This document shows, in pieces, positions 4,032-31,757 of a DNA stretch of 57,725 nt. Within the stretch, counting starts at the first letter, position 1; each line of letters begins with the position of its first letter. Under the pieces are notes generated by a model that was given only the letters and a program-made list of their open reading frames with translations, had not been told where the DNA came from and searched no databases. The position numbers and the translations under genes were made by a program. Source of the DNA: a virus. The DNA lies in the IMG/VR virus record IMGVR_UViG_3300034064_000874, positions 1 to 57,725 of that record; one strand, written 5' to 3'.

Positions 4032-4274
4032 ATGGCAGAAAAACAAGAGCTGGTCACCTATGGCCAGAGATTCAATCGACTGACGGTCATTGGTGAAATT
4101 GATCGCTCTAATCCAAATGCGCCAAGGGTCGTCGTTAAGTGTGATTGCGGGGTAAAGAAGTCTGTCATCATCAATCAGATGAAAAACGGCAGAACAAAGA
4201 GCTGCGGATGCCTCAACAAGGAAAGGATCCGCGCAGTCAGCAATTTATCCTGGAATAGGAAACACAACCGATGA
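4032..4274 (+). CDS. Cys-rich DCG/SCGC-domain protein
   Basis: A small zinc-ribbon-like protein. It has a YGQRFNRLTVIGE start, then CDCG and, about 26 residues later, KSCGCLNKE, giving four or five metal-ligand cysteines. The same module opens the HNH gene at 34248 and recurs alone at 5251. In phages it is commonly found on homing-type endonucleases. The ATG at 4032 follows GGTGG. A GTG at 4005 would add nine residues. It ends over the nrdB start, so it lies directly upstream of a gene class often invaded by homing elements. No nuclease domain is present here. Confidence 0.7.
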   Translation: MAEKQELVTYGQRFNRLTVIGEIDRSNPNAPRVVVKCDCGVKKSVIINQMKNGRTKSCGCLNKERIRAVSNLSWNRKHNR

Positions 4275-5251
4275 TTGAAAAATTTATCCTGCATGGCGAC
4301 GCCACATACAACCTAGCGCCTTTTGCCTTCCCTTGGTCATTTGATATGGCTCAGAAGAGCATCGCAAACCACTGGACTCCACAGGAAATCGGCATGGGCC
4401 GCGACCGTGCCTGCTTTGAGCAGGAGTTAACCCAGGATGAACGCCATCTATTCACTTATGTGTTCGCCAGCTTAACCACAGCTGACTTTGCTGCAGCAGG
4501 AAATCTGGTTGAGCAGGTATTCAGCAAGCTGAAGGCCGCAGAACTCAGAATGTATGTCGGCCGACAGATTGCCGAAGAGACCATTCACTCGATGAGCTAT
4601 CAGCATATTCTCGAAGTGCTGAGCCTGGATCCTATTGACGTGTACACCTTGTATCGCAGGGTTCCAGAAATCAATGACTGGTTTGAATATTCGGCCAAGC
4701 AGAATTCATTTCAGCAGGGTGACGCCATCCTGCCGCTGATCTATTGGTATGGGCTGTATGAGGGCGTGTTCTTTATGTGCGCATTTGCAGCCATTTTGAG
4801 TCTCCAGCGCAGAAACTTGATGACCGGAACGGGTCAGCAAATTTCGTACATCATGCGTGATGAGGCCCTGCACACGGCATTCGGCATGAAACTGGTGAAT
4901 GAGATATTCAAGGAGACTGGAGGTCGTCCGACTCCAGAAACGGTCCACCAGTTATTTGCGCAGGCCATGGCCAAAATTGATGCCTGGACGGATCGCTGTA
5001 TACCCACCGTGCTTGGATATAACGCCGATCTTCATAAACAGCACTGCCGATACCTAGCAGACCGCAGGTTGCGCCAGCTTGGGTATGAGCCCATGTATCA
5101 CGTAGCAGAAGCGCTGCCGTGGCTGGACGAGCAAGTCAGCCTCAAGAAAGAAACCAATTTCTTTGAAGGCCGGGTCACCGAATATCAATCAGGAGTTGGG
5201 CTTGATTTTTCTGGCGCCGGCAGCCTGAACGAAATTACTAACTGGAAATAA
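4271..5251 (+). CDS. nrdB: Ribonucleotide reductase class Ia small subunit
   Basis: The beta subunit of aerobic ribonucleotide reductase. It holds the diiron-tyrosyl radical used by the alpha subunit to make deoxynucleotides. All six metal ligands can be placed: Asp72, Glu103, His106, Glu164, Glu198 and His201, with spacings equal to those of Escherichia coli NrdB. The radical residue Tyr110 is present in EETIHSMSYQHI. The length (326 aa) is slightly short but complete. No nrdA is in the window, so the partner comes from the missing part of the genome or from the host. Both neighbours are small Cys-rich genes of one family. Confidence 0.95.
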   Translation: MIEKFILHGDATYNLAPFAFPWSFDMAQKSIANHWTPQEIGMGRDRACFEQELTQDERHLFTYVFASLTTADFAAAGNLVEQVFSKLKAAELRMYVGRQIAEETIHSMSYQHILEVLSLDPIDVYTLYRRVPEINDWFEYSAKQNSFQQGDAILPLIYWYGLYEGVFFMCAFAAILSLQRRNLMTGTGQQISYIMRDEALHTAFGMKLVNEIFKETGGRPTPETVHQLFAQAMAKIDAWTDRCIPTVLGYNADLHKQHCRYLADRRLRQLGYEPMYHVAEALPWLDEQVSLKKETNFFEGRVTEYQSGVGLDFSGAGSLNEITNWK

Positions 5252-12100: not shown

Positions 12101-15100
12101 CTGTGCTAATCGAGACCATCGACAGCCTCTGCCCGCCCAGCTTCTTCAGCACTTCATTGGCGGTCTGTGGAACGATCTGATCGTAGAATTTGCGCATGCC
12201 TTCGCCTCCGACTTTGAGGCCTTCGCCAGTAAAGCCGCCGGAATAAACGCCTCTGTCAATGCTTGACCGTATTTTGTCGCCAAGCTCCTTGCCTATGTAG
12301 TCGTCAACCTTGGTTGATGGCATGGTTTCATTGATGAGATAGTTGTTGTCAAACCCTTTGGCTTGCAGCAACACGTTATCCTTCTCTGTGTTTTCCCACG
12401 TTATGCCAGCAACCTGCTTGCTCAGGTCATACAAATCCGCATTCTGCTGCCCATTGGCAAAGGCGATCTTGTCGAAGCCGTTTTCACTTGCAAAGCGGAT
12501 GGCGCGCTTCAGTCCAAGCGACAGCCAGGACTTGGTGTCGGTGACGAAGGGGGCCTGTGGAATCGTGCCGTCAGTGCCGCCCAGGCCAGACTGATACAGC
12601 TCGATCAGTTGCTCATCTGACTGTCCGTAAGCCAAGTTGACTGAATAGCCACCTACCTGCTCGCCTGCCTCATTGCGTATGAAGACGGCGTCAGGGTCGG
12701 ATCGATCCACCGTAAATTGGCCGGATTTCTTGGTTGCGAATCCTCTTTTCTTCCCTTCCTGGCCCCAGTCCGATTGCAGCTCCTGGATAAACATCACCTT
12801 ATTGCCATCGGCATCGGTGCGCTCGTCGAAACGGAGGTGGGCTAGGACGTTCGGCTCGTTCCAGTGGGAGGATCGGTAGTTCTCTGCTTTCTTTTGCTCT
12901 CTTTCTGCCCGCGTGACTGCATTAGCGTCGTCGTCTTCCAGGTCAGAGAACCGACGGCCAAACATATCCTGCGCGATGTCGTTCAAATTACGAGGCTCTC
13001 GCTCTGGCAGCGTGATCAGCAGCTCCTGATAATTGGTGCCTCCAGGGATCGTGTAGCTGGCAAACTTTGGTGCAGCAGCGCCAACCTCTCCGCGCTCAGC
13101 CATCTCGTTTGCCAGTTCAGCAATACGGAAACGAGCTTGCGCTTGATCAGGCATACCATTCCGCTGGAAGCGCTGAGCGTCCTGCTCTGTTTCTCTTGCG
13201 ATCTCAAGCAGGCCATCAGTGGTGCTGGTGTCGCCGCCGTAATAGTCGACGTAGTCCTGCAGCTCTTTGGGTGGGGCCATCTTGCCGCCCTTCATCACCT
13301 CTTCCACGCGCACCCCGTTATCCGCCAGGTAGCTGGCAATATCGGCCTTGGTGAGCTTCTCTTTGGCATTGAGCGTCAGGTAATCCTCGATGCCGGTCCA
13401 AGCGATCTCGTCGTCCTTGATGCCCAGCTTGGCCTTATTACTGAACAGCCAGGCGCGCCACTGCGACCCGGGCATGGAGTTCATCTTGGATGACTCGAAG
13501 CCGCGAGCGAGCTGCGAGTAGAAGGTGGGATTTGGATTGCGCCGGTTGGAATAGAGGATTCCGTCCAGCGCGGGAGGGAGCTCGTTTAGTCCGACAGGAC
13601 CGCTGTCCCCTGCAGATTCAGCCAGTATTCCATCTCGGCCGCTTCCCCGCCTCTCGCCCGGCACTCGGCTGCCCGTCTCCCGTAGAAGGGATGCGAGGAG
13701 CGCCGCTCTTTTAAGCGTAGTGCGGCCCGGAGTCGACGGTCTTTCTCCTCCTGTGGGATTGGAGGTAGATTGTCCAAGTCTAGCCTTGGCCCCGGCCGAT
13801 AGATTTCTGAAGTCGTCATCTGTGAATACCTTCCCCGAGGAGATTTGTTCGAACTGCCTCGTCTTGAAATTGAATTGGATGTCATCTAGCCCTTCAACTC
13901 CAGCATACCCGGCCTCTCGATTTCCTTCAACGGCATTTCGATAGGATTTCTCGATCAATCGGTCCAGATTTCCGGCATCATCGCCCTCGATCCACTCGAT
14001 GTTTTGCAGTTCGTGCGGCTCCAGATGGCGCGTGGTTCCATACTTCAGTGCCGATGACAGCATCTGCTCGGTGCGACGAATCATGGCCTTCTTCGACAGC
14101 CCGTCAGGATCGCCTTTGAACACCAGCCCATTATTGTGAGCATAGGCGCCGATGATGCTATACAGCTCTGAGCCACGGCTCTTGCCAGACTCCAAGTTGG
14201 ATGCATCCACATAGAGCTTGTCGTCCGAGTCGGTTTTCACGAAAGCCGGGGATCCGTCTTCCATGATGATGGTCCAGTTGCGGCCATCGCGAGACGCCTT
14301 CACCTCGATATCCGGGTTAATGTCGTTGGCGATGTCCTGCATTGTCTTCGCATCTGACTTAGGCGACATGAACAACTGGTCAAACTTGGCCAGTTCGGTC
14401 AGCGTTTGCCTGGCACGGAGCTTGGTCGCCGTCGGGATGCGCCGGTTGCTGGCCGGGATGTCCACAGCAGCGCCTTTCTTCGCCCGGCTGGCCATCTCAT
14501 CCGGCCAGAACTTCTCGCTGGTGCCGGTGAATGAAGCCGCGTAGCGGTCGTAGAGGGATGGATTGATCGACTTGACGTACTCACCCCAGGCTTGCGGGGT
14601 TTTGCGCGACCAGTCCTTGCCCATGAGGCGAGCCAGGCGCTTGTTGGCGTTGGGCTCGGCGCGCTCACCGGGCTCAACCTGGGGACGGCCCTGGCCTTCA
14701 AATCGAACCGGGACTTTGTGATCGCCGATCAAAACCGCGGCACGTTGATTGCCGAAGTCAGCGACATAGCCATCGAAGCCGGCATCGATGACGGCGGATT
14801 CCATGTTGTTGTCGCGCTCTTCGGAATTGGCGCCCGTGATGTTCTCCGCAATGCTCAGCGGATCTGCATCAATATCGTAGAGATTCTTGAGCAGGACGGT
14901 GTGGGCATTGCCGCCGACACCCTGCTCAGGGGACACGCCTTGACCGGCGTTGATGTAGAAGTAGATTCGATTGGCGAGGCGCTGGTCAGCCGCGTTCTTG
15001 ACGCGCTCAGCCTCGGCACCGGTCGCCCCAGTGCCGTACTTGGATCCGTCTAGCTCTTTGCGTTCTGCGCTGGAGTAGTGGACGCCGACTGCGCGGACGC

Positions 15101-18100
15101 CGCCTCTTTTTGTTTGGCCATACCCCGGTCGGTCGCCCGCCGCAGAGCTGCTTCCAGCCCGTTCATTGCCGGGATCATTGGGTCGTCGGTTGCTGGCTGG
15201 GATGTCTGGTCCGACGGCTTCATCGAAGAGGCGGTCAGATTCGGCCTGTATGGCGTCAAAATCCCGCTTCCACCGAGGAATGTCTCGCCCGGCCTGGGAT
15301 CCCGCCGAGTCACTTTTGCCATATCGTGTGCCCTCTAAATAGCCTTCCAGCGTGTCAGGCTCGATCCAATCGGATCGGAACGTCGTGCTGGTGGTTTCAT
15401 ATTCAACATCAGATTCAATGCCACTGATAGCCGAATCTATGCCATCGTGAAAAGTCTGCTCGGCAACCTTCCCTTCAGAGAAGTTACCAAATACCAGAGA
15501 GCCGTCGCGGGTGGATACACCCTGCGCATCCGGATAACGCTGATTGATGACCCGGAAAAGATCAGCTTCTTCGGTGACCGAGAGCTTTTTACTCGGTATC
15601 ACCTTCACAAACTGGTTCTGGACGCCAGTCTGCTTGTCGTTCTCGTTGTAAGCGATCATAGCCTTCTGCTTCCACAGAAGACCCACGATTTTGGCAGCCT
15701 CTAGCTGCTGATCATAACTGACTGACTCGCCAAAGTGGATAGTGATGGACGGATTAACCAGTCCCTCAAATCCACCCATCGTGTACTCAAGGCGAAAGTC
15801 CGTGATGCCCAGCTTGTTGAGCACCTTTGGCAGCACGACATCACCGACCTTTCTGGTGACGCGCAGCTTGTCCTTGTAGGGGAGTCCGTCAAATTTAGCC
15901 GCCGCCCCCTGCGCACCCGCCTTTATGTAGTCCGGATTCGGCGCTAGTTCTGCGTTGACTCCGGAGTCTCGTCGGTTGCTGGCTGGGATGTCTGCTTGTC
16001 CAGCCCCGTTATCCTGTCGAACTCTTCCGCCGACACTATCATCTCCGGCGTCCAGCTTTCGTTGTCCGCCTCGAAATCCCGTTGCGGGTCCGATGGTTCC
16101 ACGGAAATCCCCTTTAGAAGCTCGGAGATTTCTTGCTGCGTTCGCGTAATCTGGGGCTTCATCTGGCTCATAATCTTCACCTTTATCTTCTTTGACCTTG
16201 GCGGCCTCGTACAGTCTCTTCTTTTCTGGATACCAGATCAATGCCTGGAAATCCGCCATAGTCAGCCGGTCGTGTACTTCCTGCAGGCGAGTCAGGGCAT
16301 CATTAAAGACGGCTCGGATGAACTTGCGCTGATTGACCCCTTTGGGCGCATCATTTAGGCCTTGCAGCTGGCGAACCAGGTTATTGCCTGCCTTGCGTAT
16401 TTCAGCACCCATATTGGTTCTGGCTTGCCCGCTGCGTGGCTCACCATAAATCTCAATGAACTGCTTAGGGTCGCGCTCACCAATTGGGTTCATGGCGTCG
16501 CGGTTTTCCGGTTTTTGACTGGCTCCGACAATCAGAGCGGCAGTACCGTCCAGGTCGCCTAACAGTAGCTTTCCGCCAATGATCTCTTGTAGGGAGCGAC
16601 GCTCTTGCGCGTCCAGCATACGAATGAGGGAATCCAGTGATTGGCGCTTTGCCTTAATAGCTGCTGGGTCGATGGTTACCAGGTCGCCAGTCCAGCGGTT
16701 CCATGTCCGCATGAACCAGCGATCCATGGTCAACTGCTCGTAGTGCCCGTAGAGGTTGGAGAAGAACCCGTTACCGATTTTTGGCCCCAAGATAATGGAA
16801 CCGTACACCATCTCGTCTTTTCCTTCGCCAGAAATGGTCTTGCCCGTTAACTGCTCGATCTCTCTGACTGGGCGCAGTGTGGTCATGAAGGACTGCAGCC
16901 TGTCATAACCCCACTTGTCCATGTACTCGTTGTAGGTCGCCAAGCCTTCATCGATCTTGGCTTTGGCCGGGCCTTCGCCGATATTCTCCGGCATGCGTCC
17001 GTGGACTCGCAGGTGCGCATACACCTTGTCGGCCAACTCAAAGTTACGGTCAACCTTCATGCCGTTGGAGGTGACAGCCAGCGCCCAGATAAACCCGAAT
17101 CTGGCCTGCGGATCATCGCGCAACTCAAGGTAGATCTCGCCCATGATATCCATGGCGACCGTGAGCTTTCCGTCGTACCAGCCGATGGCGCTGGAGTTCG
17201 TCTTGAGGGCTTCCTGAGCCTCTCGTATGGCAATGCCGACCAAGTAATCGTAGGTGGACTGATCCTTGGCCTTGAGGTCGACACCGGCGGCCTTCGCTAC
17301 CCTATTGATGCGGCGATCTAGCTCAACCCTCAAATCCCTGCCGGTTTTCCACTGGCGCGACTTGGCCAGATCCACTGCGGCATTGATGAAGTTGATTTCT
17401 TCCAGGGTGGCCGGGATGACCCGCTTATTGGTCGGCTCGCTGTCAAACCCCTTGGCGGCCAGGGTGTTTTTCTCAGCGCGGCGGTCTGCCTTTTCACGCT
17501 CCTTTTCGGCCTTTTGCCGCTCACGTTCTTGAGCTTTCTCTGCTTTCTCTTCTTCCGTCAGGCGTTTCTTGCTCTCCAGAATCTCCGGCCCGTCGAACTC
17601 AGGTTCAGTGCCGGTCTGCTGGGCGTTAGCGTACTGAGCGAGAGCCTCTGTGACGGCGTTACGGGCGCGCTGTAGATCCTTCTTGGCAATGGCGGCTTCG
17701 GCGTTGAATCCGGCGCCCTGGAGCTTCTGAATCAGCCCACTCATGAACCCATCCACGGCCCGCAGGAACTTGCCGCCGGAACCCGGGCGCTGCTTGTTCA
17801 TGGCCACGGCAACACGGAACAGGGCGGTGGGCTTGTGGATCACGTCCGACACAAAGTCGGAAACCCACTCTTCCTCATTGCGGCTGGGATCGGTGAGACC
17901 TGGATAGGCGCTGATCGTGTCGCCTTTCTTCGGAAGCTCCTGCTCGTAGTTGCGTTCACCCAGGTGCATGGACACGCCGATCGGGCTGTACACCTCGCGC
18001 AGCGCCGTCACCATGTCGGCATAGATCTTGGGTGCCCGACGACGCAGGCCATGGGTCAGCTCATGAGCGACGACCCGAGAGAAGGTATCTTGAGAATTCT

Positions 18101-21029
18101 TGTTGAGGAGGATTACATCGGGCCGGGATCCGATGATGGCGCCGTCTCGGTCGAGCTCGGTGGTTCCGTCTTCGTGCTCGATGTAGACGACACGGTGGCC
18201 GAATACCTGCGCAATAGACTCAGCAATTCGTCGTTGCACAAATCCGCGACGGGGCAGCGCGGTTGCGGTTTTGATCTTCTGGAGAAGTACGCCTCCACTA
18301 TCTCCAGCTCCTCCGGCGTTAAGGGTGTCAACTGCTGTGTTGTATTCGTCGATGACATCTTGGTCGTTCGCCTTCGTGTTGCTGGCCGCAATATCGGATT
18401 GTACGCCCTGGCTTGCAAGATACTGCTCCGGCGTAATCAGCGGCTGGCCCAGCTGCTTCTGCACGGCGTTCTGGCCGCGCAGCTCACTCTCCTGCTTGGC
18501 GGTCAGTTGAGTCGGCAAAGATTTGTTGCCAGCTGGCCTGGATACACCCTTGATCGTCCGTCTAACCGGAAGCGGCAGCTGATCCCAGTTCTGACTTTTG
18601 ATCTCCGGCATCTCGAGCTCTTCAGCCCAGACGGATTTACCGGCTTCGTCCAGGGTGTCCCAGTAGTCCTTGGTGTTCTGCTCGGGCTGACGCTCTAGTG
18701 CAGGCTCGCTGACAGGATTGTTGGCCGTTGATGCAGTGGTAGTTGCTCCGACATTTCCATCAGCTGATCCACCCTCAAGTCGATCTCGTCCATCAACAGT
18801 GCCAATTCCAGCTCCTCCTTCTGCTCCCTGAGCGAGAGCACTTCCTGCTGCAGTTCCTGGAGCAATTTCTCCAGTGCCTGCCGTGGGATCATTGGCATTG
18901 GGATTCTCCGTGGTGCCGGCGCTTACCTGCCCGCCGGCTGGCATAGGAATAGATCCGGGCGCTTGGCCCGGAAGGTTTAGCAGCCCTTCTTGCCCGGACG
19001 TCCCGGCATTGGCTTCTTGGTTTTGCCCTTCATTGGTGGTCTCCTGAGTGGCGGTGGTAGTTTCTCGATCAGCATTGAGCTGATCCAGGGCTTCAAACGC
19101 ATCCACGTCGGTCGGATGCTGGCTGATGACGGTCCCGGTGTTGGTATCAACAATCTGGAACTCGTTGTCAGAGACTTGCCGGATCTCCGGCGCGATATCG
19201 GTTACCTGCGGCCCTTGGGCGGCATCGACGGCTTGGGATTGCCCTTCTTGGATGGGGGCTTGGGTTGTTCCTGTTGGTTCTGCAGGCGCCGTACTTGCGC
19301 CAGCGGGATCTTGGGCATTGGTGTCTCCTGGAATGCCGGTGGATGAAATGGAGGTGTCTTCGGCTTGGTCTCGCTCAGCCGGCATCGTCGCGGCCGCAGC
19401 AAGACGCCGAGCCATGATGTCGCGGGCCTGCTTGGCGCGCTCAATTCCAGAGAGTCCTGGGTCGGTCTCGGTCTTCAGAATCTCCATGAACATGGGATTC
19501 TTGTTGTAGAGCGACTCGATCTTGTTTTCGGATGACCAGCGTTTGGCCGCCACATCAGCTGCCTTTCCAAGCAGCACCTGGCCGCCGGTTCCGACCAACG
19601 TGGCAACAGCCGTCTGTATCGCTGCAGACGGACGCTCGGCCATGAATTCCTTGGCGGTCTTGTCTGGGTTCAGCTCAACCCACTTATCGAGATCCTGCAG
19701 GAATGTGGCGGCTTGCTCGCCCAGCATTTCTGGAACCAGCTGCTTGGCAAAGGTTTTCCAGAGGGCGTCATTGGCCTTCAAGCTGCCCAGCAACTTGCCC
19801 ATCGGGATAGTCTCAGTGCCGACCTCGATAATGCCCTGGGTTGTCCCGTAGAGTGCAGCTCGCTCCGGGCTTTTGCCGGCATCACGCGCTTCTCCATAGG
19901 ACTGACCACCCGACATGACGCCCATCGGGGCCAGCGCCATCAGCGGATTGCCAGTGACAACAGCCGCCGGGATCGTCATCAGATTCTGGGTGATCGACTG
20001 CATACCGGAGTACACGCCAGATGCCAGATCGCTGTCGGCCTGTGGGGTGAGTCGCTCGGCAATCGTCTTTTGCCCCTGACGCGCCTTACTGTAGGTCTGC
20101 GCCAGTTGCTGGACCGGATCCTGCACACCAAAAGCGTTGAATACGGGTCCGGTCAGATATTTGTTTGTGGCTTCGGCGCCGGCTTGCAAAGTACCAAGGA
20201 CGCCTTCACTGCCCCGATAAACACCGGACAGCGCAGCGGATCCAAGGTTCTTGGCGGCCTGGCCCGGGTTGTTGACCACGCTTTTCGGGTCCATCACCTG
20301 GTTGTAGGCGAAGTCCTCCACCGCATTGCCGGCGTCGCTGATTAGGTTCTTGCCGCGCTGTAGCAGGGACGGCGGTTGTGCGGGAGGCTCGGCGGGCGCT
20401 GAGACAGCTTCCTGCTGGCTCGAAAATGGAACCTCTGCGGCATCTGCTTCGGTGAAGATCTTCATGCCGCCATCAGAAGGCGAGGCATCCGACGTAACAC
20501 CACCATTCCACGCCGCCAGAATCTGCCGAGCATTTCGCCGACGCGCTCCTAAAGCAGGGACTCCAGGACGCTCGAAACCAGACATGTCGCCTGGTTGCCC
20601 CATGAAATTGGTGGTCGCCTGATCAAGGCTGCCAGACCGCTTCAGCGTCTCGAAAGCCGGCCTCTCGCTGGTCAATAACTCCTGCTTGAGGAACTGAAAG
20701 TTGGCATCATCAGACGCTGGGTCGAGATTGTTCGCCTTAACAAACTCCTCAAACTGACGACGACGCGGACCTGTCCACTGGGCCCATCCAAATCCACCAC
20801 GACCACTGACAGGCTTGATCTCCTGCATCTGCTTGAATCCACCGGACTCATGCCACAGGTTGCCCATAACCCCGGCCGCTTGCTCTGGAGTCATCCGCAA
20901 ATCCGGATCATCGATCAGGCGCTGAACACCCGACAGGGCAATATCCATGCTCGAACGGCGCTCGGGCTTGGCATCAGCCAAAGAGGGACCGGCCGATACC
21001 TGATTACCGTCTTCGTCGAATGCCAACAT
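9168..21029 (-). CDS. Giant polyvalent virion protein with N-terminal tail lysozyme
   Basis: A 3953-residue protein, presumably packaged and ejected with the DNA. Residues about 27-190 form a phage tail lysozyme-like domain (Glu61 in NLWHESGGF). Amphipathic segments follow (about 230-480). After a disordered linker comes a zincin-like HELTH motif near residue 988, then a Lys/Glu coil near 1160. The middle holds large-polyvalent-protein-associated modules, including a VHYSS...DAGFDGYVADFGNQ domain near 1985-2120 that may be ADP-ribosyltransferase-like. Another module has LRFDERTDADGNK and FIQELQSDWGQ. SNRR motifs separate modules at about 1682, 1945, 2193, 2493 and 3060. A hydrophobic helix lies near 3640. 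It probably aids wall passage, DNA entry and early host takeover. Confidence 0.9.
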   Translation of the reverse strand: MLAFDEDGNQVSAGPSLADAKPERRSSMDIALSGVQRLIDDPDLRMTPEQAAGVMGNLWHESGGFKQMQEIKPVSGRGGFGWAQWTGPRRRQFEEFVKANNLDPASDDANFQFLKQELLTSERPAFETLKRSGSLDQATTNFMGQPGDMSGFERPGVPALGARRRNARQILAAWNGGVTSDASPSDGGMKIFTEADAAEVPFSSQQEAVSAPAEPPAQPPSLLQRGKNLISDAGNAVEDFAYNQVMDPKSVVNNPGQAAKNLGSAALSGVYRGSEGVLGTLQAGAEATNKYLTGPVFNAFGVQDPVQQLAQTYSKARQGQKTIAERLTPQADSDLASGVYSGMQSITQNLMTIPAAVVTGNPLMALAPMGVMSGGQSYGEARDAGKSPERAALYGTTQGIIEVGTETIPMGKLLGSLKANDALWKTFAKQLVPEMLGEQAATFLQDLDKWVELNPDKTAKEFMAERPSAAIQTAVATLVGTGGQVLLGKAADVAAKRWSSENKIESLYNKNPMFMEILKTETDPGLSGIERAKQARDIMARRLAAAATMPAERDQAEDTSISSTGIPGDTNAQDPAGASTAPAEPTGTTQAPIQEGQSQAVDAAQGPQVTDIAPEIRQVSDNEFQIVDTNTGTVISQHPTDVDAFEALDQLNADRETTTATQETTNEGQNQEANAGTSGQEGLLNLPGQAPGSIPMPAGGQVSAGTTENPNANDPTAGTGEIAPGTAAGSALAQGAEGGAGIGTVDGRDRLEGGSADGNVGATTTASTANNPVSEPALERQPEQNTKDYWDTLDEAGKSVWAEELEMPEIKSQNWDQLPLPVRRTIKGVSRPAGNKSLPTQLTAKQESELRGQNAVQKQLGQPLITPEQYLASQGVQSDIAASNTKANDQDVIDEYNTAVDTLNAGGAGDSGGVLLQKIKTATALPRRGFVQRRIAESIAQVFGHRVVYIEHEDGTTELDRDGAIIGSRPDVILLNKNSQDTFSRVVAHELTHGLRRRAPKIYADMVTALREVYSPIGVSMHLGERNYEQELPKKGDTISAYPGLTDPSRNEEEWVSDFVSDVIHKPTALFRVAVAMNKQRPGSGGKFLRAVDGFMSGLIQKLQGAGFNAEAAIAKKDLQRARNAVTEALAQYANAQQTGTEPEFDGPEILESKKRLTEEEKAEKAQERERQKAEKEREKADRRAEKNTLAAKGFDSEPTNKRVIPATLEEINFINAAVDLAKSRQWKTGRDLRVELDRRINRVAKAAGVDLKAKDQSTYDYLVGIAIREAQEALKTNSSAIGWYDGKLTVAMDIMGEIYLELRDDPQARFGFIWALAVTSNGMKVDRNFELADKVYAHLRVHGRMPENIGEGPAKAKIDEGLATYNEYMDKWGYDRLQSFMTTLRPVREIEQLTGKTISGEGKDEMVYGSIILGPKIGNGFFSNLYGHYEQLTMDRWFMRTWNRWTGDLVTIDPAAIKAKRQSLDSLIRMLDAQERRSLQEIIGGKLLLGDLDGTAALIVGASQKPENRDAMNPIGERDPKQFIEIYGEPRSGQARTNMGAEIRKAGNNLVRQLQGLNDAPKGVNQRKFIRAVFNDALTRLQEVHDRLTMADFQALIWYPEKKRLYEAAKVKEDKGEDYEPDEAPDYANAARNLRASKGDFRGTIGPATGFRGGQRKLDAGDDSVGGRVRQDNGAGQADIPASNRRDSGVNAELAPNPDYIKAGAQGAAAKFDGLPYKDKLRVTRKVGDVVLPKVLNKLGITDFRLEYTMGGFEGLVNPSITIHFGESVSYDQQLEAAKIVGLLWKQKAMIAYNENDKQTGVQNQFVKVIPSKKLSVTEEADLFRVINQRYPDAQGVSTRDGSLVFGNFSEGKVAEQTFHDGIDSAISGIESDVEYETTSTTFRSDWIEPDTLEGYLEGTRYGKSDSAGSQAGRDIPRWKRDFDAIQAESDRLFDEAVGPDIPASNRRPNDPGNERAGSSSAAGDRPGYGQTKRGGVRAVGVHYSSAERKELDGSKYGTGATGAEAERVKNAADQRLANRIYFYINAGQGVSPEQGVGGNAHTVLLKNLYDIDADPLSIAENITGANSEERDNNMESAVIDAGFDGYVADFGNQRAAVLIGDHKVPVRFEGQGRPQVEPGERAEPNANKRLARLMGKDWSRKTPQAWGEYVKSINPSLYDRYAASFTGTSEKFWPDEMASRAKKGAAVDIPASNRRIPTATKLRARQTLTELAKFDQLFMSPKSDAKTMQDIANDINPDIEVKASRDGRNWTIIMEDGSPAFVKTDSDDKLYVDASNLESGKSRGSELYSIIGAYAHNNGLVFKGDPDGLSKKAMIRRTEQMLSSALKYGTTRHLEPHELQNIEWIEGDDAGNLDRLIEKSYRNAVEGNREAGYAGVEGLDDIQFNFKTRQFEQISSGKVFTDDDFRNLSAGAKARLGQSTSNPTGGERPSTPGRTTLKRAALLASLLRETGSRVPGERRGSGRDGILAESAGDSGPVGLNELPPALDGILYSNRRNPNPTFYSQLARGFESSKMNSMPGSQWRAWLFSNKAKLGIKDDEIAWTGIEDYLTLNAKEKLTKADIASYLADNGVRVEEVMKGGKMAPPKELQDYVDYYGGDTSTTDGLLEIARETEQDAQRFQRNGMPDQAQARFRIAELANEMAERGEVGAAAPKFASYTIPGGTNYQELLITLPEREPRNLNDIAQDMFGRRFSDLEDDDANAVTRAEREQKKAENYRSSHWNEPNVLAHLRFDERTDADGNKVMFIQELQSDWGQEGKKRGFATKKSGQFTVDRSDPDAVFIRNEAGEQVGGYSVNLAYGQSDEQLIELYQSGLGGTDGTIPQAPFVTDTKSWLSLGLKRAIRFASENGFDKIAFANGQQNADLYDLSKQVAGITWENTEKDNVLLQAKGFDNNYLINETMPSTKVDDYIGKELGDKIRSSIDRGVYSGGFTGEGLKVGGEGMRKFYDQIVPQTANEVLKKLGGQRLSMVSISTAQDLSDTPEDLVVRINETSGGRFRVGVGAGEARRAETFDTREQAQAWADEQVAAAESGRYSSQPGFDITPALQDKALDGMPLFSNRRNVLNQPALATWTTPDDSKLDNYVYLLQDKHIDTKRIVEKLGSRVSDAWDPYLKETLYHGRAAKDVDDFKVNEIKPLLRAMSTRGITIGELETFLHNRHAKEANEQIARINEAYPDGGSGILTQDAQDYLNNLPAGKRTDLEAMAAQIDAITAGTRRLLVDSGLETQDTIDAWEATYADYVPLQRESEDVLNRGMGTGQGFSTKGPASKRRTGSGKAVVDILANVMMQRERAITRAEKNKVGLALYGLAIQNPNPEFWYPVNPDAVKKPASVAQELVNNGMLESDLAGIIQEPTVASVNPRTGLVEYKINPALRNRDNVLAVRIKGKDRFLFFSTENERAVRMAQSLKNLDAPEMHGLLNAFRYITRYVSSINTQYNPIFGVVNLLRDTQGAMLNLSTTPIAGKQTEVAAKIAPAMAGIYGDLRADRKGKPRKGSAWSQLWEEFQSIGGKTGYRDMYATADDRMKALEKELKAIQDGKVKRLTRGLFDWLSDYNETLENAVRLSAYKVGTESGMSKEQAAVMAKELTVNFNRKGQIASQAGALYAFFNAAVQGTARLAETVKGPAGKKIVAGGLIMGVVQAAIMAAAGYDDDEPPEFLRERNFIIPMPNGKYVSIPMPLGFHVLPNTGRVLTEIAINPDGAGKKIAGLLGSFFDAFNPIGSAGWSVQTIAPTFADPLVALSENRDSFGKEIAKKDRSSTSPTPGFTRTKDTASWLSKQLAWGLNRITGGTDYTQGALSPTPDQLDYVFSQATGGVGREVMKIEQAASAWMTGEELPPYKYPLGVGRFVGDVKSQSAESNRFYANLTRLNELESEIKGRAKDGKDVAGFLRSNPLAALVPAGNQMERAVSELRSKKRKLIAQNAPKATIKALDGQIATQMKVLNDRVKEVNR

Positions 21030-24487: not shown

Positions 24488-25252
24488 CTATTTATTCATC
24501 TGGCCGTACATGCCCATACCAAGACCCATCATGGACCCGCCGATCTGCCCTGCAGCCGCATTAGCGGCGACGTTGTTCTGCACCTGAGCATTGATTCGGG
24601 CCGCCTGATTGGACGCCGCATTCTGCCCACCACCGGTCACCAAATTAAGACCCGTCCCCAGCCGTTCCTGGTAGTCACCAAACCGGGACAGGGTCTGGTC
24701 GCGGTAATTGCCAACCCGCTGAACCTGCTTGCCCAGCACCTGACCCATCTGCCCGCGTCGCCGGCCGTATTCACTGAGATAGCCCAGCCGGCCTTGCGCA
24801 TTGGCGCCCCGGGTCGTGGCGCGCATACCAAGAGTGAGTCCACCCATGCGACTCACGAAGGCGCCGGATCCAGGTCCGCCCGATTGGGCAGCTGTCTGCA
24901 TAACGCCCTGCGCCTCCTCCGGATAACCTTGCCAGGCCTGATTGACGTCGCGATCACCGGCGCCTTGGTAGTTGGCGTCCGCATTCAAGCCGCTCAGCTC
25001 CTGCTCCAATTCGTCAGTGCGCTGATTGGTCTGCTTCAGGTCAGTCAGATCGTCCTTCAGCCGCCGGTTGACCACGGGATCCAGCTGCTGCTGCCAGAAT
25101 CGGCCCTGCTCATAAGCCTGGCGATTGACCTCAGAGGCTTTGATTTCCTCCGGAGTTGGACCCCAGTTGTCTACCTCGCCACTAAATGCGCCTGCGGCCC
25201 CGGCGGCGGATATACCGACACCGATAGCTGATACTACGGCTCCGAATGGCAT
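24488..25252 (-). CDS. Putative DNA-ejection or internal virion protein
   Basis: A 254-residue protein with a hydrophobic Gly/Ala-rich N-terminus (VVSAIGVGISAAGAAGAF), a helical Gln-rich centre, and a Gly/Met-rich C-terminus (GGSMMGLGMGMYGQ). Such glycine-zipper-like ends occur in phage proteins that enter membranes during ejection. GGAGATTGTT precedes the ATG. Its start overlaps the end of the oxygenase-like gene by nineteen bases, tying the modification trio to the virion gene set. Confidence 0.65.
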   Translation of the reverse strand: MPFGAVVSAIGVGISAAGAAGAFSGEVDNWGPTPEEIKASEVNRQAYEQGRFWQQQLDPVVNRRLKDDLTDLKQTNQRTDELEQELSGLNADANYQGAGDRDVNQAWQGYPEEAQGVMQTAAQSGGPGSGAFVSRMGGLTLGMRATTRGANAQGRLGYLSEYGRRRGQMGQVLGKQVQRVGNYRDQTLSRFGDYQERLGTGLNLVTGGGQNAASNQAARINAQVQNNVAANAAAGQIGGSMMGLGMGMYGQMNK

Positions 25253-25812
25253 AACAATCTCCTTTCCGTCTTCATGCAGACCACCAATGAAATTCGGTCC
25301 ACCGGGGAGTTATTTGTCACCCAATGGCGCTTGCGGTTGTTGAACCAGACACACTCGCCCGGCTTGGCGGAATAGCTGCCTTCCTCAAAATGAATCGCCT
25401 GATCAGGATGGCCCTCCAGAGTCACCATCACCTTGCAGTTGTAATGGCAGGCATTGAAGCCGCCGTCGATATGCGGATCCACTCGGCCGCCCGGTGGTAC
25501 CCGGGTAATCAGGACACCGCCCAGGCGCTCACCTCGGACCCAGTGCATCAGCTCGAAACAGATATCCTTCACCGCCGACAGGCAATCCGCTTCGGGATAC
25601 CAGACCGCTTCGTGTGGCTCAAGGCAGAAATCTTCCCAGCTGCCATTGAATTCGCCCCGGTCCCGGTAGCGCACCCAGATATCTGACACACCCTGGTGCG
25701 GACCATAGGCATTGGCTCGCTCGGTGTAACGGTCCCAAAGATCCGGATGCTGCTTCAGCTGCAACAGAGCCGGCAGCACATTGATCGACCCGAGAGGGAG
25801 AAAACTATTCAT
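25234..25812 (-). CDS. 2-oxoglutarate/Fe(II) oxygenase-like protein
   Basis: A 192-residue protein with the double-stranded beta-helix signature of the aspartyl/prolyl hydroxylase class. His114-x-Asp116 lies in VDPHIDGG, the distal His163 in RKRHWVTNNS, and the 2-oxoglutarate-binding Arg is probably Arg173 in VDRISLVV. These enzymes hydroxylate protein side chains or small molecules using Fe(II), oxygen and 2-oxoglutarate. The ATG overlaps the end of the sulfotransferase-like gene (ATGAATAG). The substrate is unknown. The location between tail and ejection genes suggests a virion protein or host surface component. Confidence 0.75.
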   Translation of the reverse strand: MNSFLPLGSINVLPALLQLKQHPDLWDRYTERANAYGPHQGVSDIWVRYRDRGEFNGSWEDFCLEPHEAVWYPEADCLSAVKDICFELMHWVRGERLGGVLITRVPPGGRVDPHIDGGFNACHYNCKVMVTLEGHPDQAIHFEEGSYSAKPGECVWFNNRKRHWVTNNSPVDRISLVVCMKTERRLLCHSEP

Positions 25813-26311
25813 CCTGCATCTCCAGGTAATCTATGTAAGCCTCCTGGGCCTCCTTGATCGCCAGCGCATTCTGGATGTTCAGACCTCTGAGCAGCGAATA
25901 GCGAGCGGCATCAAACGGCATCGGCAACAACCACTCGGCAGCCGGCCGGAAACGCTCGACATGAAATAAATCATGGAAGGTGATGTGGTAACCGCCGATC
26001 TCGTCCAGCTTCCACTTGTGCTCGTCCTGCATGGCAGGCAGACCCAGCTTCGCCAGTGAGAAATTCACGTCACCCAACTCTCGGTGGACGATCATCTTCT
26101 TCGCCGGGTGCCGATTGAGCTCGTCAGCATTCATCAGAGTGAGCTGCGTATCGGCAATCCCGAACAGGCCCGCGCCTTTCATGGCGTCCAGCTCAGCCAG
26201 AGATCTCTGCCACAGCGGCTCATGCCAGCAAATACTGCGCTCGGTAGTAAACCAGTTGGCCAGCCAGGCCGTGCCGGAGCGAGGTAACCCGACAATCATG
26301 AAGTCGATCAC
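25805..26311 (-). CDS. Sulfotransferase-like P-loop protein
   Basis: A 168-residue protein whose N-terminus (MIVGLPRSGTAWLANWF) matches the 5'-phosphosulfate-binding loop of PAPS-dependent sulfotransferases, with the Gly8-Arg11-Ser12-Gly13-Thr14 arrangement. It is shorter than typical family members (about 250-300 aa), so it is a minimal or divergent form. The start is GTG overlapping the GNAT-like stop (GTGA). It may sulfate a tail, capsid or host glycan target, or may have lost sulfation activity. The call rests on the loop motif and overall pattern. Confidence 0.68.
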   Translation of the reverse strand: MIDFMIVGLPRSGTAWLANWFTTERSICWHEPLWQRSLAELDAMKGAGLFGIADTQLTLMNADELNRHPAKKMIVHRELGDVNFSLAKLGLPAMQDEHKWKLDEIGGYHITFHDLFHVERFRPAAEWLLPMPFDAARYSLLRGLNIQNALAIKEAQEAYIDYLEMQDE

Positions 26312-26694
26312 AGGCGCCTCTCGAAAACAGAGGCCACAATGTCCCAGCCTGGGACTTTCTCAAATCCGGCCCGGTTGCTCCACATCACGATCCGATCAAA
26401 TCCATGCTCGATCGCGATCTCGTCGACCTGATCCTGGAACGTGGCGATGTTGTCCTGACCGCGGGCATAGGCAACCCACAGGAACATCTCCGGCTTCCCG
26501 GTGATGAGGTTGCTCTGCTGCTGCACGACGATGAAACCGGGCTCGCCGGTATAGATGAACGCCCTGCCTGCCACGCAGGCGGCGTAGACGTCCTCAGGGC
26601 GCCACTGGGCGTTGATCTTGCGCCGGGTATGCTCGAGTCCAGAGCGGACCTCGTCCCAGCATTCACGGATATCTTGGAGGATTAGTTGGCTCAT
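26308..26694 (-). CDS. GNAT-like acetyltransferase fold protein
   Basis: A 128-residue protein similar in pattern to the small GNAT-like proteins found beside podovirus tail and ejection genes. It has WRPEDVYAACVAGRAFIY, FIVVQQQSN, FLWVAYARG and a C-terminal EHGFDRIVMWSNRAGF. The acetyl-CoA P-loop (Q/RxxGxG/A) is not clear, so catalysis is uncertain. ATG 26694 has a GGAAG site. ATG 26709 would add five residues. It is coupled to the sulfotransferase-like gene. Confidence 0.65.
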   Translation of the reverse strand: MSQLILQDIRECWDEVRSGLEHTRRKINAQWRPEDVYAACVAGRAFIYTGEPGFIVVQQQSNLITGKPEMFLWVAYARGQDNIATFQDQVDEIAIEHGFDRIVMWSNRAGFEKVPGWDIVASVFERRL

Positions 26695-26917: not shown

Positions 26918-27294
26918 GGGATGACCACCTCATCGTTCCAGTCCAGAAAAGGGAAGCACTCCACGCGTAGCGAGTAGGTGCCGGGCAATGGAAATTCCAG
27001 CTCCACCGTGCCTTCGGCATCGTAACTAACCCCGTTAATGGTGAGCTTGCTGCCGGCAGGCACATCTAACAGGGTAAGGCTTGTGCGGCTAACGGGGGAA
27101 GTGGGGCGTTCGGTCACTTCGCCAGCCAGAACATAATGCTCGTACTGACTGAATAGAAAATCAGTATTCGGCACAATGACCGTGGACAATCCATACCCTT
27201 CCAGCGTCTCGCGTTGTGCGCCTTCGATCAGACCGAGAACCTGGCTTTTGATCTCGCCAGAATTTTGATCGTAGCCAACCAGAACACTGATCAT
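26914..27294 (-). CDS. Small tail-associated beta-rich protein
   Basis: A 126-residue protein coupled to the large tail gene by ATGA. The C-terminal half (SKLTINGVSYDAEGTVELEF, then PGTYSLRVECFPF) looks like a beta-sandwich of carboxypeptidase-regulatory or Ig-like type. The N-terminus has a mixed fold. Its position directly after the host-specificity protein suggests a tail-tip accessory. No enzymatic residues are visible. Confidence 0.6.
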   Translation of the reverse strand: MISVLVGYDQNSGEIKSQVLGLIEGAQRETLEGYGLSTVIVPNTDFLFSQYEHYVLAGEVTERPTSPVSRTSLTLLDVPAGSKLTINGVSYDAEGTVELEFPLPGTYSLRVECFPFLDWNDEVVIP

Positions 27295-30200
27295 CCGAGC
27301 ACCTCCGAGATAGTCAGCCGTACATCAGACATGGACCCAGACTCATTCGCCAAGAAAGCATAACTCGCCGTGATGGTAATGCTGCTGATGGATGTCGCTG
27401 TCGGCGTCGACGGAATGGCGATCGTTCCAGAGTAGGCTCGGGCGCTCATATCCGCTCCGTTTTTGTACCAGAAGTCGCCCCCGTAGGTGGCGCCATTCGA
27501 AAACGTGAGGTCCATTTTTATCCTGGTTGCCCGCGTTGACGTCTCCATATCCAGATTGAACAACAGCATCCTGCTCTGCCCTGACTGGCCCAAAAAAGTA
27601 AACGGCAAACCAAAGTTGCTCCAGGTGACCGAACCGCTGCCCGACAGATTGCCGGATGTAGGTTTCCGGGCAGTATCCTGAAAGGTCAGTACCTTGATGA
27701 TTGAGTTATTGCCGATGTTCTTCCCACTCCGCACAATGACGGTGTTGAACTCGGCATTGCCCACAGTATCGATGCACCACCCCTGGGTGCCTGTGCCCGC
27801 CGTGGGCTGGCCTGTTGTGCCGTTGATCGTGCCATTCCAGTTGGTGCTGCGAGCCGATCCGGCGACGGCGGACCCATAGAAGAAAGCATTGCCATCGCCT
27901 GAGATTCGGAAACCTTGGGGCGGGATTCCAGCGCCCGGATTCCCTAAGGTAAAAGTGGACGACCGGATAACGCCGCCTGACCCCGCCAGAGTAATCACGG
28001 CCGAAGTGATCGACCCTGCCCCCAACTTGTCCGCCACAATGCCGCCGTCAACAAATAACCCGCCACTCAGCGAGTTCTGAGCGGTCTGCCATGCAGAGCC
28101 ATTCCAGCGCCGACTTTCTACTGGCCCCGCTCCGCTATTGAATGTCAGGGTCAGCAAATCAAAGATGACCGGGACACCGTTGGGTACAAAAACATTGGCG
28201 GTCGCGTCACTGGGCCAAGAGCTGTTCGCCACCGTGCCGGAATAGATACCCGAACCCCGAGAGCCCGAGGCACCTTTCTTGTTTTTCGACAGCGAGAACC
28301 GCTTGGTCAGCGACGAAAACCCGGTGCGCGTAGCGACAAAGTCAACGTAGCCGACATCCTGGCTCATAGCCGTCACCGTCGCCGTGCGGCTGGTCGTCCC
28401 CTCGGATACCGTCACATTGCTCCGCGTCTGGCTCACCGACCAGGAGGCAGACTCGTCTGTGATGCCCCGGTAAATAGTCAGCGTGGAACTCGCCCCCGCG
28501 TAAACCCCGTTGTTGCCGTCCTGATCCGTCGGAACCGAGTGCGACTCATTGCTCAATACCGCCGTAATTGCGTCAGACCCCTCGGCCAGTTCCACCAAGG
28601 TCAGCGTGTCCGTCACCCCATCACACTCCACCGAAATCACAGCGGTCGGATTGCTGGTGTACCAATACCCTACGCCGCTGCTGGCAGTGCCTGAGTTCTG
28701 GTTGATGAAGACGCGAATCGTGGTGTTCTGCGGCGTGTTCCAGGCGCCAACGGCCGTAGGCGTCAGCGAGCCGGTGCCTTGTGCATACTTCCAGGTGTGC
28801 GTGGCAGTCATGCCACTCTTGACCAGCGTCACGTCGATGTAGCTACCTTCGTAGGTGCCATCCTTGAATTTCTTGCGCACCAGCGACGTGGCGTAGAGGG
28901 AAAGCCCGGACCCGCTCTGGCCCTGTTTTGCCTTCGCCACCGTAAAGATCCGGTCCAGGGGATCCGCGCCCGACTTTGACGCCCGCACCGTGATGGTCGC
29001 CATATCGGCGGTCATGGACGGACTGCCATCCGCGAAACCTACCGTGTTACCGGATACATCCGGCGCTCCGCTCAGGCCGGTAAAACTGGCGGCAGAAATG
29101 GCCCAGCTCTCCGAGGTCGTCACGTCCGTCGCGCCTCGATAAACCTTGGCGATCGTCGACGCACCGGCATAAGAACTGACCACCCCAGCGGCATCGGCCG
29201 GCACCAAATGCGCCTCGTTCGACAAATACAGCCATAGCGAGTCCGACCCGTCCTGCACCTTGGCTAGCGTCACGTAATCCTCGTAAACCACACTGTCGAC
29301 CGTCGTCGAGGCTTTGAACGTCACCGTCGCCGTCGTCATCTGCGCCGGGTCAATCGTCTTCTGAACGCCCGTACCGAGCGCTGCGCCGTAAGTGCCGGAA
29401 GTCACCGACCACGTCACCGTGCCACTGATGTTCTGCAACACCGCATTCAGTGTGATCGTGCTCGGCGTGATCGCCGTACTCGGCGGCTTGGCAATCGTAA
29501 ACAGCTCCGCGCTGGCCGACACAATCAGCCGCCTGAACGAACTGAACGCAATCTTGCCCGCCTGAATGATCGGATTGCCATACTCGTCGTACAGCGCAAA
29601 CGACCCGCCGTAGAGCGCCAGATTGGATGCCTTGTCCAGCTTCCAGCCATTGAACGGGAACGTGTTGGGTCCACCGGATGCCGCCCAGCTATAGGACTTC
29701 AGGTCGCCGTAGATCTCAGCATCGCCGACAAACGCCTTCTGGATATTCGCCGTCTTCATGTAGACGCCGGGTTCGATCGTCAGGGTCTTGCCACTACCGT
29801 CCGGCGCGTTGATCGTTTGTTGCGTGCTGTAGACGATGAACGGAATGTTGGTGGTGTTAGCGTCGGTCCAGGTCCAGGTGCCCCCGGCGGCTTTACAGGC
29901 GGCTGCCGTCGTATGCCCTGCAATCGAGCAAGTGCCGGTGCGCAGCAGGGCCGGGTTACCCACGGCGAAACGATCCGCCCGGACAAAGAAGTCCGACACC
30001 TCGCCGTTATTGTAGAGTCCGAAACCTGAAACCAGCCCATTCACGTCGGTCTTGACCATGTACTGGGCCTTGATGCCGTCGATGACGGTGGCCTGGGTCT
30101 GGATGGTCGCCGTGTTGCCCGCGACCGAGCTTTGTAACGTCGTGATCTGTGTCGCCATCGCGGAATCGGCGGTGGCCCTGGCCGTGGCTTCGTTCTGGAT

Positions 30201-31757
30201 CGCCGCCGTGTTGGCCGCGATGCGGGTGTCGTCCGTCAGTTCCCAGGTTGTGCCGTTATAGCGGTAAGCCTTGTTGTTGTCGTCAGAGTCGAACCAGATG
30301 TCACCCGCTGTCATGCCCGAGGTGGGAGCAGTCGTCTGACGGTAAGTCCGGTTCTTGGCGCCCGCCGTCGCGGAGACCGTATTGATCTGCGTCGCGAGGG
30401 ACGAGTCGGCGCTGGCTCGGGCATTGGCCTCCGTGGTGACCGCCGCGTCGCTGTAGGTCTTGGCGCTGTTCAGGTTGGCCGTGTCCGCTGCCTGATAGGA
30501 CGCCACGATGCCGGTGAGCTGGGATGCCATTGCACCATCCACTTCCGCCTTGGTGTAGCGGTTGTTGATGTACCCGGCTTGGGTCGTGATATTGCCCTCG
30601 GCCGTCGTAACGCGAGCCGCCAGGGTTTCCCGTGCCGAAACTTCTGCCGAGAGCCCAGTATTCAGAATGGAGATCTGGTTACTGTGCGCGGCGACCGCGT
30701 CACCGATCGAGGTATAGTTGCCGATCAACTGCCAATAGGTTGTGTTGGTTGGCAGATTGCCCGTCGTCGTTTGCAAGGCCCGGTAGATCGACCCGTTGTA
30801 CTTGACGATATCGTCTGTCTGATAAGTCGTGCCCGCGTTGTAGTCAGGCGCCCCCAGCACTTCGTCGATCTGCCCCTGCAACAGGCTGACCTGCGTCTGG
30901 ACCTCAATGTCCAGGTCGTCCAGTCGAGTGCCCAGGTCGTTCCACAGCGGGGTGGCCGCAATCTCATCTTCCAGGGACAGCGCCGTTCCCATCACCCCGG
31001 CCGTGGTGTTCGGGAAATAATCGCTGAACAGGTTCTCAGCATCCCGCACTCGTACCCAGAAATACCAAGTCGGCTGATTGACCGGCGGGGTGTAGACGAA
31101 CATCGAGCCATTACTCTCGCCCAGCTTGGTCGCCGTCGCCCGGTCGTTGCTCTGACTGCCCCAGATTTCGATGGTGTCAAGGTCGCCCACGTAGGGAATC
31201 GTCCACTTGAGGACGATGTAACCAATCCCGCTCAGAGCCACCAGCGTCGTCACAGACGGGGGCGGGCCGTCCCACATCGAACCGATCTCGACGGTGAGCG
31301 CGTTACTCGTCGCCGACAGATTCCTTGGGTCGCCGGAGTATTCCGCGACAAAGGTGTACGTGCCCTTGGACAGCTGGTCCGTCACGGTGGCCATCGACCC
31401 GGATAGCGTCACCGGATCCAGCGTCATCAGGCTACCGTCCTGGCGAAACTGCACCGTCCCAGTCGGCTGGTCCCCGGTGACCGTCGCCGTCAGCGTAAAG
31501 TCCTCCTCGGACAGCGGCTTGATCGGTGAGATCGTCAGAACGACCGTTGACTGGTTGGGGGGCGTACCCGGATCAGGGCCACCGCCGCCACCGCCACCGC
31601 CACCGCCACCGCCACCGCCACCGCCTCCAGAAGACGACTTGGTCTGCGCCAGTCGGGTCACTTGTTCGGACACACCGCCCACAGCGGCTCGCAGCTCGCG
31701 CAAGAAGTTGGCGAGGTTGCTATCCTTAATGCCGGGAGGGACTTGCCGTATCGCCAT
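27291..31757 (-). CDS. Large tail host-specificity protein with DUF1983-like region
   Basis: A 1488-residue tail protein. In order: a short N-terminal helix; 17 consecutive glycines (about 44-60); an Ig-like domain (about 68-155, LSEEDFTLTATVTG); a fibronectin III-like domain (about 165-265). A chitin-binding-like module (YQTDDIVKYNGSIYRALQTT) lies near residue 310. A coiled region and a central-tail-fibre-like DUF1983-type segment follow (TDVNGLVSGFGLYN). Beta-rich repeats complete the C-terminus. This domain style is familiar from the distal part of lambda J-type proteins and is unusual with a podovirus-like head. It probably binds the receptor. TGATG couples it to the previous gene. Confidence 0.78.
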   Translation of the reverse strand: MAIRQVPPGIKDSNLANFLRELRAAVGGVSEQVTRLAQTKSSSGGGGGGGGGGGGGGGGGPDPGTPPNQSTVVLTISPIKPLSEEDFTLTATVTGDQPTGTVQFRQDGSLMTLDPVTLSGSMATVTDQLSKGTYTFVAEYSGDPRNLSATSNALTVEIGSMWDGPPPSVTTLVALSGIGYIVLKWTIPYVGDLDTIEIWGSQSNDRATATKLGESNGSMFVYTPPVNQPTWYFWVRVRDAENLFSDYFPNTTAGVMGTALSLEDEIAATPLWNDLGTRLDDLDIEVQTQVSLLQGQIDEVLGAPDYNAGTTYQTDDIVKYNGSIYRALQTTTGNLPTNTTYWQLIGNYTSIGDAVAAHSNQISILNTGLSAEVSARETLAARVTTAEGNITTQAGYINNRYTKAEVDGAMASQLTGIVASYQAADTANLNSAKTYSDAAVTTEANARASADSSLATQINTVSATAGAKNRTYRQTTAPTSGMTAGDIWFDSDDNNKAYRYNGTTWELTDDTRIAANTAAIQNEATARATADSAMATQITTLQSSVAGNTATIQTQATVIDGIKAQYMVKTDVNGLVSGFGLYNNGEVSDFFVRADRFAVGNPALLRTGTCSIAGHTTAAACKAAGGTWTWTDANTTNIPFIVYSTQQTINAPDGSGKTLTIEPGVYMKTANIQKAFVGDAEIYGDLKSYSWAASGGPNTFPFNGWKLDKASNLALYGGSFALYDEYGNPIIQAGKIAFSSFRRLIVSASAELFTIAKPPSTAITPSTITLNAVLQNISGTVTWSVTSGTYGAALGTGVQKTIDPAQMTTATVTFKASTTVDSVVYEDYVTLAKVQDGSDSLWLYLSNEAHLVPADAAGVVSSYAGASTIAKVYRGATDVTTSESWAISAASFTGLSGAPDVSGNTVGFADGSPSMTADMATITVRASKSGADPLDRIFTVAKAKQGQSGSGLSLYATSLVRKKFKDGTYEGSYIDVTLVKSGMTATHTWKYAQGTGSLTPTAVGAWNTPQNTTIRVFINQNSGTASSGVGYWYTSNPTAVISVECDGVTDTLTLVELAEGSDAITAVLSNESHSVPTDQDGNNGVYAGASSTLTIYRGITDESASWSVSQTRSNVTVSEGTTSRTATVTAMSQDVGYVDFVATRTGFSSLTKRFSLSKNKKGASGSRGSGIYSGTVANSSWPSDATANVFVPNGVPVIFDLLTLTFNSGAGPVESRRWNGSAWQTAQNSLSGGLFVDGGIVADKLGAGSITSAVITLAGSGGVIRSSTFTLGNPGAGIPPQGFRISGDGNAFFYGSAVAGSARSTNWNGTINGTTGQPTAGTGTQGWCIDTVGNAEFNTVIVRSGKNIGNNSIIKVLTFQDTARKPTSGNLSGSGSVTWSNFGLPFTFLGQSGQSRMLLFNLDMETSTRATRIKMDLTFSNGATYGGDFWYKNGADMSARAYSGTIAIPSTPTATSISSITITASYAFLANESGSMSDVRLTISEVLG
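31577..31629. repeat. Hexanucleotide microsatellite encoding polyglycine
   Basis: A run of ACCGCC units, broken only near its ends, encodes 17 consecutive glycines on the minus strand near the N-terminus of the large tail protein. The tract is a likely site of slippage. Gains or losses of whole units would stay in frame and change only the linker length. Confidence 0.85.

Follow-up and report, generated by a model that had tools for sequence, protein, structure and literature searches.

Between the tail genes and the ejection genes of a phage recorded in IMG/VR stand three small genes that run into one another, and the question raised by this locus is whether their products are active enzymes and, if so, on what they act. 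The window, that is, the whole stretch of DNA analyzed here, is this 57.7-kb record. A reading of the letters alone (the sequence-only reading) had described the three genes as a coupled trio in a late, virion-linked location. All three were indeed found adjacent and overlapping where it had placed them, all on the minus strand, with the GTGA and ATGAATAG overlaps as described, and the location was borne out by a tail-fiber-like protein on the 5′ side and ejection-type genes with a giant protein on the 3′ side (Table 1). The coupling is real at both junctions, but the chain does not end with the third gene: the oxygenase gene shares 19 nucleotides with a fourth, missed by the sequence-only reading, whose Shine-Dalgarno sequence sits inside this overlap. 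The virion module of the window (portal phrog_156, internal virion protein phrog_511, and capsid PF13252) is of the podovirus type, shared with the Stx phages, with BcepIL02, and with douglas 12A4. When the structural region of the window (positions 22000 to 46000) was compared with 50,697 named phage records, no close relative emerged at the nucleotide level. The giant product is a polyvalent ejection-module protein that is DarB-like in relatives. Since the plus strand encodes RecT (784-1569), a ribonucleotide reductase small subunit (4271-5251), and a phage integrase (7790-8899), the phage is probably of the temperate type.

Table 1. Features of the gene cluster in the window, with the evidence for each assignment
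Feature	Position	Strand	Evidence or remark
GNAT-fold protein, 128 aa	26694-26308	minus	phrog_610, predicted fold
GTGA start-stop overlap, GNAT/sulfotransferase, 4 nt	26308-26311	minus	
Minimal PAPS-type sulfotransferase, 168 aa, GTG start	26311-25805	minus	phrog_10855, motifs, predicted fold
ATGAATAG start-stop overlap, sulfotransferase/oxygenase, 8 nt	25805-25812	minus	
Fe(II)/2-oxoglutarate oxygenase, Asp_Arg_Hydrox family, 192 aa	25812-25234	minus	PF05118, invariant ligands
Putative first ejection protein, 254 aa, N-terminus MPFGAVVSAIGVG	24488-25252	minus	position only; proposed substrate
Tail-fiber/host-specificity-like protein, 1488 aa, 5′ side	27291-31757	minus	phrog_38396, 3890, 496 (tail)
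Giant ejection-module protein, 3953 aa, 3′ end of cluster	9168-21029	minus	phage lysozyme + LPD37 + LPD38

The sequence-only reading had assigned a chemistry to each of the three proteins by motif (an HxD...H...R oxygenase core, a PAPS-type GLPRSGT loop, and a GNAT-like fold); profile searches upheld the first, structure prediction and motif conservation agreed with the second, and for the third the fold was recovered without its catalytic loop. The profile match, 35.6 bits against Asp_Arg_Hydrox (gathering cutoff, 22.6; E = 1.1e-8), makes the 192-aa protein a true 2-oxoglutarate (2OG) oxygenase of PF05118, the Asp/Asn-hydroxylase family. An alignment-based scan of IMG/VR returned 538 relatives, PF05118 was matched by 52/52 of those sampled, and the core residues H114, D116, and H163 (HxD...H), together with the 2OG-binding R173, were invariant in 69/69 non-redundant phage relatives. 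From these residues the phage protein would be expected to be an active 2OG enzyme. The nearest solved relatives by sequence were L-proline cis-4-hydroxylase (4p7w; 1e-6) and AspH (1e-3), which have in common with it the fold family, the HxD...H...R core, and the expected 2OG chemistry; the phage protein is short. An oxygenase of the PF05118 type has been listed once, in Limnohabitans phage DC33, as an auxiliary gene without context (PMC12195039).

The 168-aa protein is best described as a minimal PAPS-type sulfotransferase, an assignment made from predicted fold and motifs and not from Pfam membership: it matched phrog_10855 (E = 3.2e-33) and stayed under the Pfam cutoff (17.7 versus 27 bits), and 28/58 of its relatives matched Sulfotransfer_3 at E ≤ 0.01. 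The GLPRSGT stretch occupies residues 8 to 14, and in the 5′-phosphosulfate loop PRSGT, PR and T were kept in 92/92 family members and S in 90/92. Both residues of the 3′-phosphate motif R-x7-S are present in the window protein, R77 being kept in 84/92 members and S85 in 78/92, and C28, H30, and [DE]31 were kept in 92/92. Its AlphaFold model (pLDDT, 94.8) was matched by Foldseek in the PDB to human TPST-1 (5wrj) at the top (E = 3.8e-4; probability, 1.00; TM, 0.60 by query length), with SULTs ranking after it. TPST-1/2 and the SULTs are thus the closest solved folds and share the P-loop and 3′-phosphate motifs, but they have about 270 aa or more; no PDB sulfotransferase was matched by the family profile, even at an E of 10, so that a sequence-level relation to TPST found no support. 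In a protein of just 168 aa the acceptor site may be reduced. Members come almost exclusively from phages, with 117 loci in IMG/VR against 7 in 84,980 species genomes. Members with about 30 to 42% identity, carried under the phrog_10855 label "hydrolase," occur in Pamexvirus/PaMx25-type Pseudomonas phages, where, in the two regions read, they stood either with replication genes or close to endolysin and terminase, without an oxygenase; because some members have replication genes or further non-virion genes around them, a virion link does not hold throughout the family. The role of phage sulfotransferases is regarded as unclear in the literature (PMC10580990).

The oxygenase, in phages that have it, mostly occupies a single slot, which follows the tail genes and precedes the first ejection protein. 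Most oxygenase loci run from a tail gene, sometimes through a fiber gene, to oxygenase, cupin, and sulfotransferase in any combination, and then to a gp7-like ejection protein and two long ejection proteins. The upstream tail gene encodes PF11134 (P22 gp10 type) or a comparable structural protein, and the gp7-like neighbor matched phrog_598 ("DNA ejection"; P22 gp7 family) wherever this was tested (4.6e-44 in L044, 2e-33 in L301, and 2e-38 in PfAn1). PfAn1, a Pseudomonas fluorescens phage, carries an oxygenase together with a GNAT-type gene. The gp7-like downstream gene was nearly constant, whereas the upstream fiber varied or was absent, the tail gene being followed directly by the oxygenase in many loci; the strongest neighbor of the pair is the first ejection protein, not the tail fiber. 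In P22 the slot is occupied by gene 14 (PF11039, "head morphogenesis") and in T7 by gene 13 (PF11090, "probable scaffold protein"), in each case the last small gene before gp7 or gp14 and not an early gene, but neither phage carries an oxygenase or a sulfotransferase there. P22 gp7 and T7 gp14 have been equated as the outer-membrane ejection protein (PMC8954989), and in a study of marine phages a GNAT encoded beside internal virion proteins was suggested to be the T7 gp13 counterpart (PMC6775973).

Other occupants of the slot were also found. A PHA00672-type cupin ("short tail fibre/adhesin," phrog_12032), of a family different from both window enzymes, precedes gp7-like genes and often adjoins the oxygenase; the four histidines of its all-histidine metal site were kept in 44/44 slot cupins. 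In BcepIL02 the slot, before a DarB-like giant protein, holds a GNAT-type gp65 (acyltransferase) of another family (phrog_4470) and gp67 (PF01507; 6.5e-11), which is of the PAPS reductase type and not a sulfotransferase; this PAPS-reductase-family gene (L014, 7505-8224) represents a second PAPS-linked enzyme family in the slot. The slot protein of Rhodoferax phage P26218 (L207, 1470-2345) looks like a cupin-like domain with a weak SET-domain match (E = 0.015) after it, possibly another modification chemistry. The sulfotransferase, cupins, and (weakly) the oxygenase match PHROG families named "hydrolase" (phrog_10855), "short tail fibre" (phrog_12032), "tail fibre adhesin" (phrog_24280), and "DNA endonuclease V" (phrog_274), names that probably mislead annotation of the slot.

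The GNAT-like assignment stood as to fold. The 128-aa protein had no Pfam match and matched phrog_610 (E = 4.6e-7; relatives, up to 1.2e-11); the Foldseek PDB matches of its AlphaFold model (pLDDT, 89.7, from a seven-sequence alignment) were GNATs (best, 2e-4), and many uncharacterized phage proteins in the viral library share the fold. The acetyl-CoA loop [RQ]xxGx[GA] was absent in 6/6 family members examined, so a role as acetyltransferase was rejected and acetylation (+42) is not expected. Stx phage phi296 and phiARM81mr have homologues in the same slot but neither oxygenase nor sulfotransferase, and a kin of the window (L011/L012) has GNAT and then a cupin in place of the pair, which makes the GNAT a lineage gene and not a defining member. 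It is probably a non-catalytic accessory in the position of T7 gp13 and P22 gp14; its place matches that slot, but two enzyme genes intervene before an ejection gene that is itself assigned by position only. No sequence link was found to T7 gp13, P22 gp14, or the slot proteins of PfAn1 and PAE2, and membership by sequence in the gp13 or gp14 family was not supported, neither PF11090 nor PF11039 nor the profile comparison giving a match. In the closest relative of the window (L009), a small membrane-protein-like open reading frame (4587-4703) lies between the GNAT and sulfotransferase genes.

The sequence-only reading had proposed a survey of relatives for conservation of the trio, and here its unit did not hold: all three genes occurred together only in the window and in one 87 to 90% identical relative. 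The trio was thus rejected as a conserved unit in favor of the oxygenase-sulfotransferase pair, which recurs. An oxygenase was adjacent at about 23/61 sulfotransferase loci (non-redundant at 90%), and a sulfotransferase at 22/70 oxygenase loci. Among 80 gp7-like loci collected regardless of enzymes, 4 had an oxygenase, 2 a sulfotransferase, and about half a cupin. The pair is enriched over this background (oxygenase presence, 23/61 versus 4/80; Fisher P = 1.6e-6, indicative only because the 80 loci, ranked by similarity to one ejection protein, are no random sample and because kinship between contigs breaks their independence). Many contigs are fragments, and "no partner" may sometimes mean a partner off the contig. 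The junctions of the pair mostly overlap, and both gene orders occur. Mapped onto the tree of the sulfotransferases, the state "has oxygenase partner" changed at least 12 times, 5 of which were forced by strong branches; the pair has been repeatedly lost or re-formed, and phages with only one of the two enzymes are common. One of the seven species-genome members, in Lysobacter gilvus HX-5-24 (NZ_WOXT01000001; L301, 3237-5105), has oxygenase, sulfotransferase, and gp7-like genes in a row and is likely a prophage.

The fourth gene of the overlap chain probably encodes the first ejection protein. Its glycine/alanine-rich N terminus resembles the gp7-like N termini of relatives, but its product matched no PHROG, and profile comparison with gp7-like and phrog_611 proteins stayed below significance, so it is assigned by position only; homology to gp7-like or Stx phage proteins was not significant. 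A candidate covariation, in which ejection proteins of oxygenase-positive loci start with MP[WF] and others with MS, MT, or MG, was rejected as well: in the broader sample of 80 gp7-like loci, some oxygenase-positive loci start with MV and some oxygenase-negative, cupin-positive loci with MPWM, and the Pro2 pattern was put down to lineage signal.

Many podovirus-type phages thus carry linked sulfotransferase and hydroxylase genes directly before the genes of injected proteins, with catalytic residues kept, which suggests that a component of the phage injection apparatus is chemically modified by the phage itself. From the pair, its slot, the active-site residues, and the sulfotransferase and GNAT folds we infer a chemistry and a target; we favor, tentatively and at somewhat less than an even chance, a reading in which both enzymes are active and act on a virion protein while the particle is assembled, the first ejection protein being the likeliest. 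Expression of the sulfotransferase-oxygenase cassette would coincide with that of the late structural genes; the oxygenase would provide a hydroxyl group, and sulfate would be transferred by the sulfotransferase to that hydroxyl or to Tyr, Ser, or Thr. The two activities make chemical sense side by side, the hydroxyl being made and then sulfated, but each enzyme could act alone, and since each also occurs alone a strict two-step pathway is not required. The most likely substrate would be the first ejection protein, the outer-membrane piece of the DNA ejection channel and counterpart of P22 gp7 and T7 gp14, because the slot beside its gene is more constant than any fiber neighbor. The GNAT-fold protein would serve as a non-catalytic assembly accessory, like T7 gp13 or P22 gp14, and modification would adjust how the ejection protein is packaged, stays soluble, or inserts into the membrane. 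Against this reading stand the failed Pro2 covariation, the want of detectable homology between the downstream protein of the window and known ejection proteins, and the sulfotransferases of the family that lie with non-virion genes. The more specific proposal, that podoviruses carry a dedicated cassette of 2OG hydroxylase and protein sulfotransferase, sometimes with a metal cupin, by which ejection proteins are both hydroxylated and sulfated before packaging, we hold to be unlikely.

A tail needle, fiber, or other receptor-contact protein, the target envisaged by the sequence-only reading, would suit modifications that are of a surface type, as sulfation and hydroxylation are, and tail-fiber or needle-like genes do lie 5′ of the slot in many loci, the fiber gene of the window being a few genes upstream; the inconstancy of that fiber beside the near constancy of the gp7-like gene makes this target improbable in our estimate. 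We give the same low standing to late action on host molecules, for instance hydroxylation of lipid A in the manner of LpxO or sulfation of a surface glycan, which would limit re-adsorption of progeny. Lipid A hydroxylases such as LpxO belong to PF05118, glycans are frequent substrates of sulfotransferases, some members of the phage family are encoded away from the virion module, and small-molecule substrates are possible because the profile matches include free-proline hydroxylases. However, no membrane segment was noted, the genes stand in the virion module beside ejection genes in many different phages, and a receptor-editing gene would not be expected to prefer this slot.

A shade less probable still is that the slot takes up whatever small folded domain has been recruited as a non-catalytic scaffold or chaperone, as T7 gp13 is thought to be. 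The loop-less GNAT and the interchange of GNATs, cupins, oxygenases, and sulfotransferases in the slot speak for this, but the invariance of the Fe/2OG ligands (69/69) and cupin ligands (44/44), with the P-loop kept in nearly all sulfotransferases and the 3′-phosphate residues in over 80%, does not: metal and cofactor ligands are kept across highly diverged phages, which argues that the enzymes are not pure scaffolds. Interchangeable occupants in variable order, with some related sulfotransferases elsewhere, could also mark unrelated cargo at a recombination hot spot between the tail and ejection modules; this we rate as very improbable, given the enrichment of the pair, its overlapping coupling, and a small recurring set of chemistries rather than random cargo.

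In the literature, most subscription papers aside, no description was found of the paired cassette, of the slot, or of a link to ejection proteins; what has been described are single pieces, the GNAT near internal virion proteins and oxygenases and sulfotransferases listed as auxiliary genes of unclear function. To our knowledge, modification of a phage virion protein by hydroxylation and sulfation, including protein sulfation, has not been reported, and the chemistry, if shown, would add a new kind of modification for virion proteins. Ejection proteins have to fold compactly in the head, travel through a narrow tail, and assemble again into a channel within the host envelope. As to how they are prepared for this, a recurrent pair with conserved active sites, next to the gene of the outer-membrane channel piece, gives a testable answer, modification before packaging, which, if true, would explain a slot labeled hydrolase, tail fiber, or hypothetical and would give phage sulfotransferases a function. 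A separate feature was seen in Aeromonas phage phiARM81mr (L015, 972-2883), where a retron-type reverse transcriptase, possibly a diversity-generating element or a retron, lies between tail genes.
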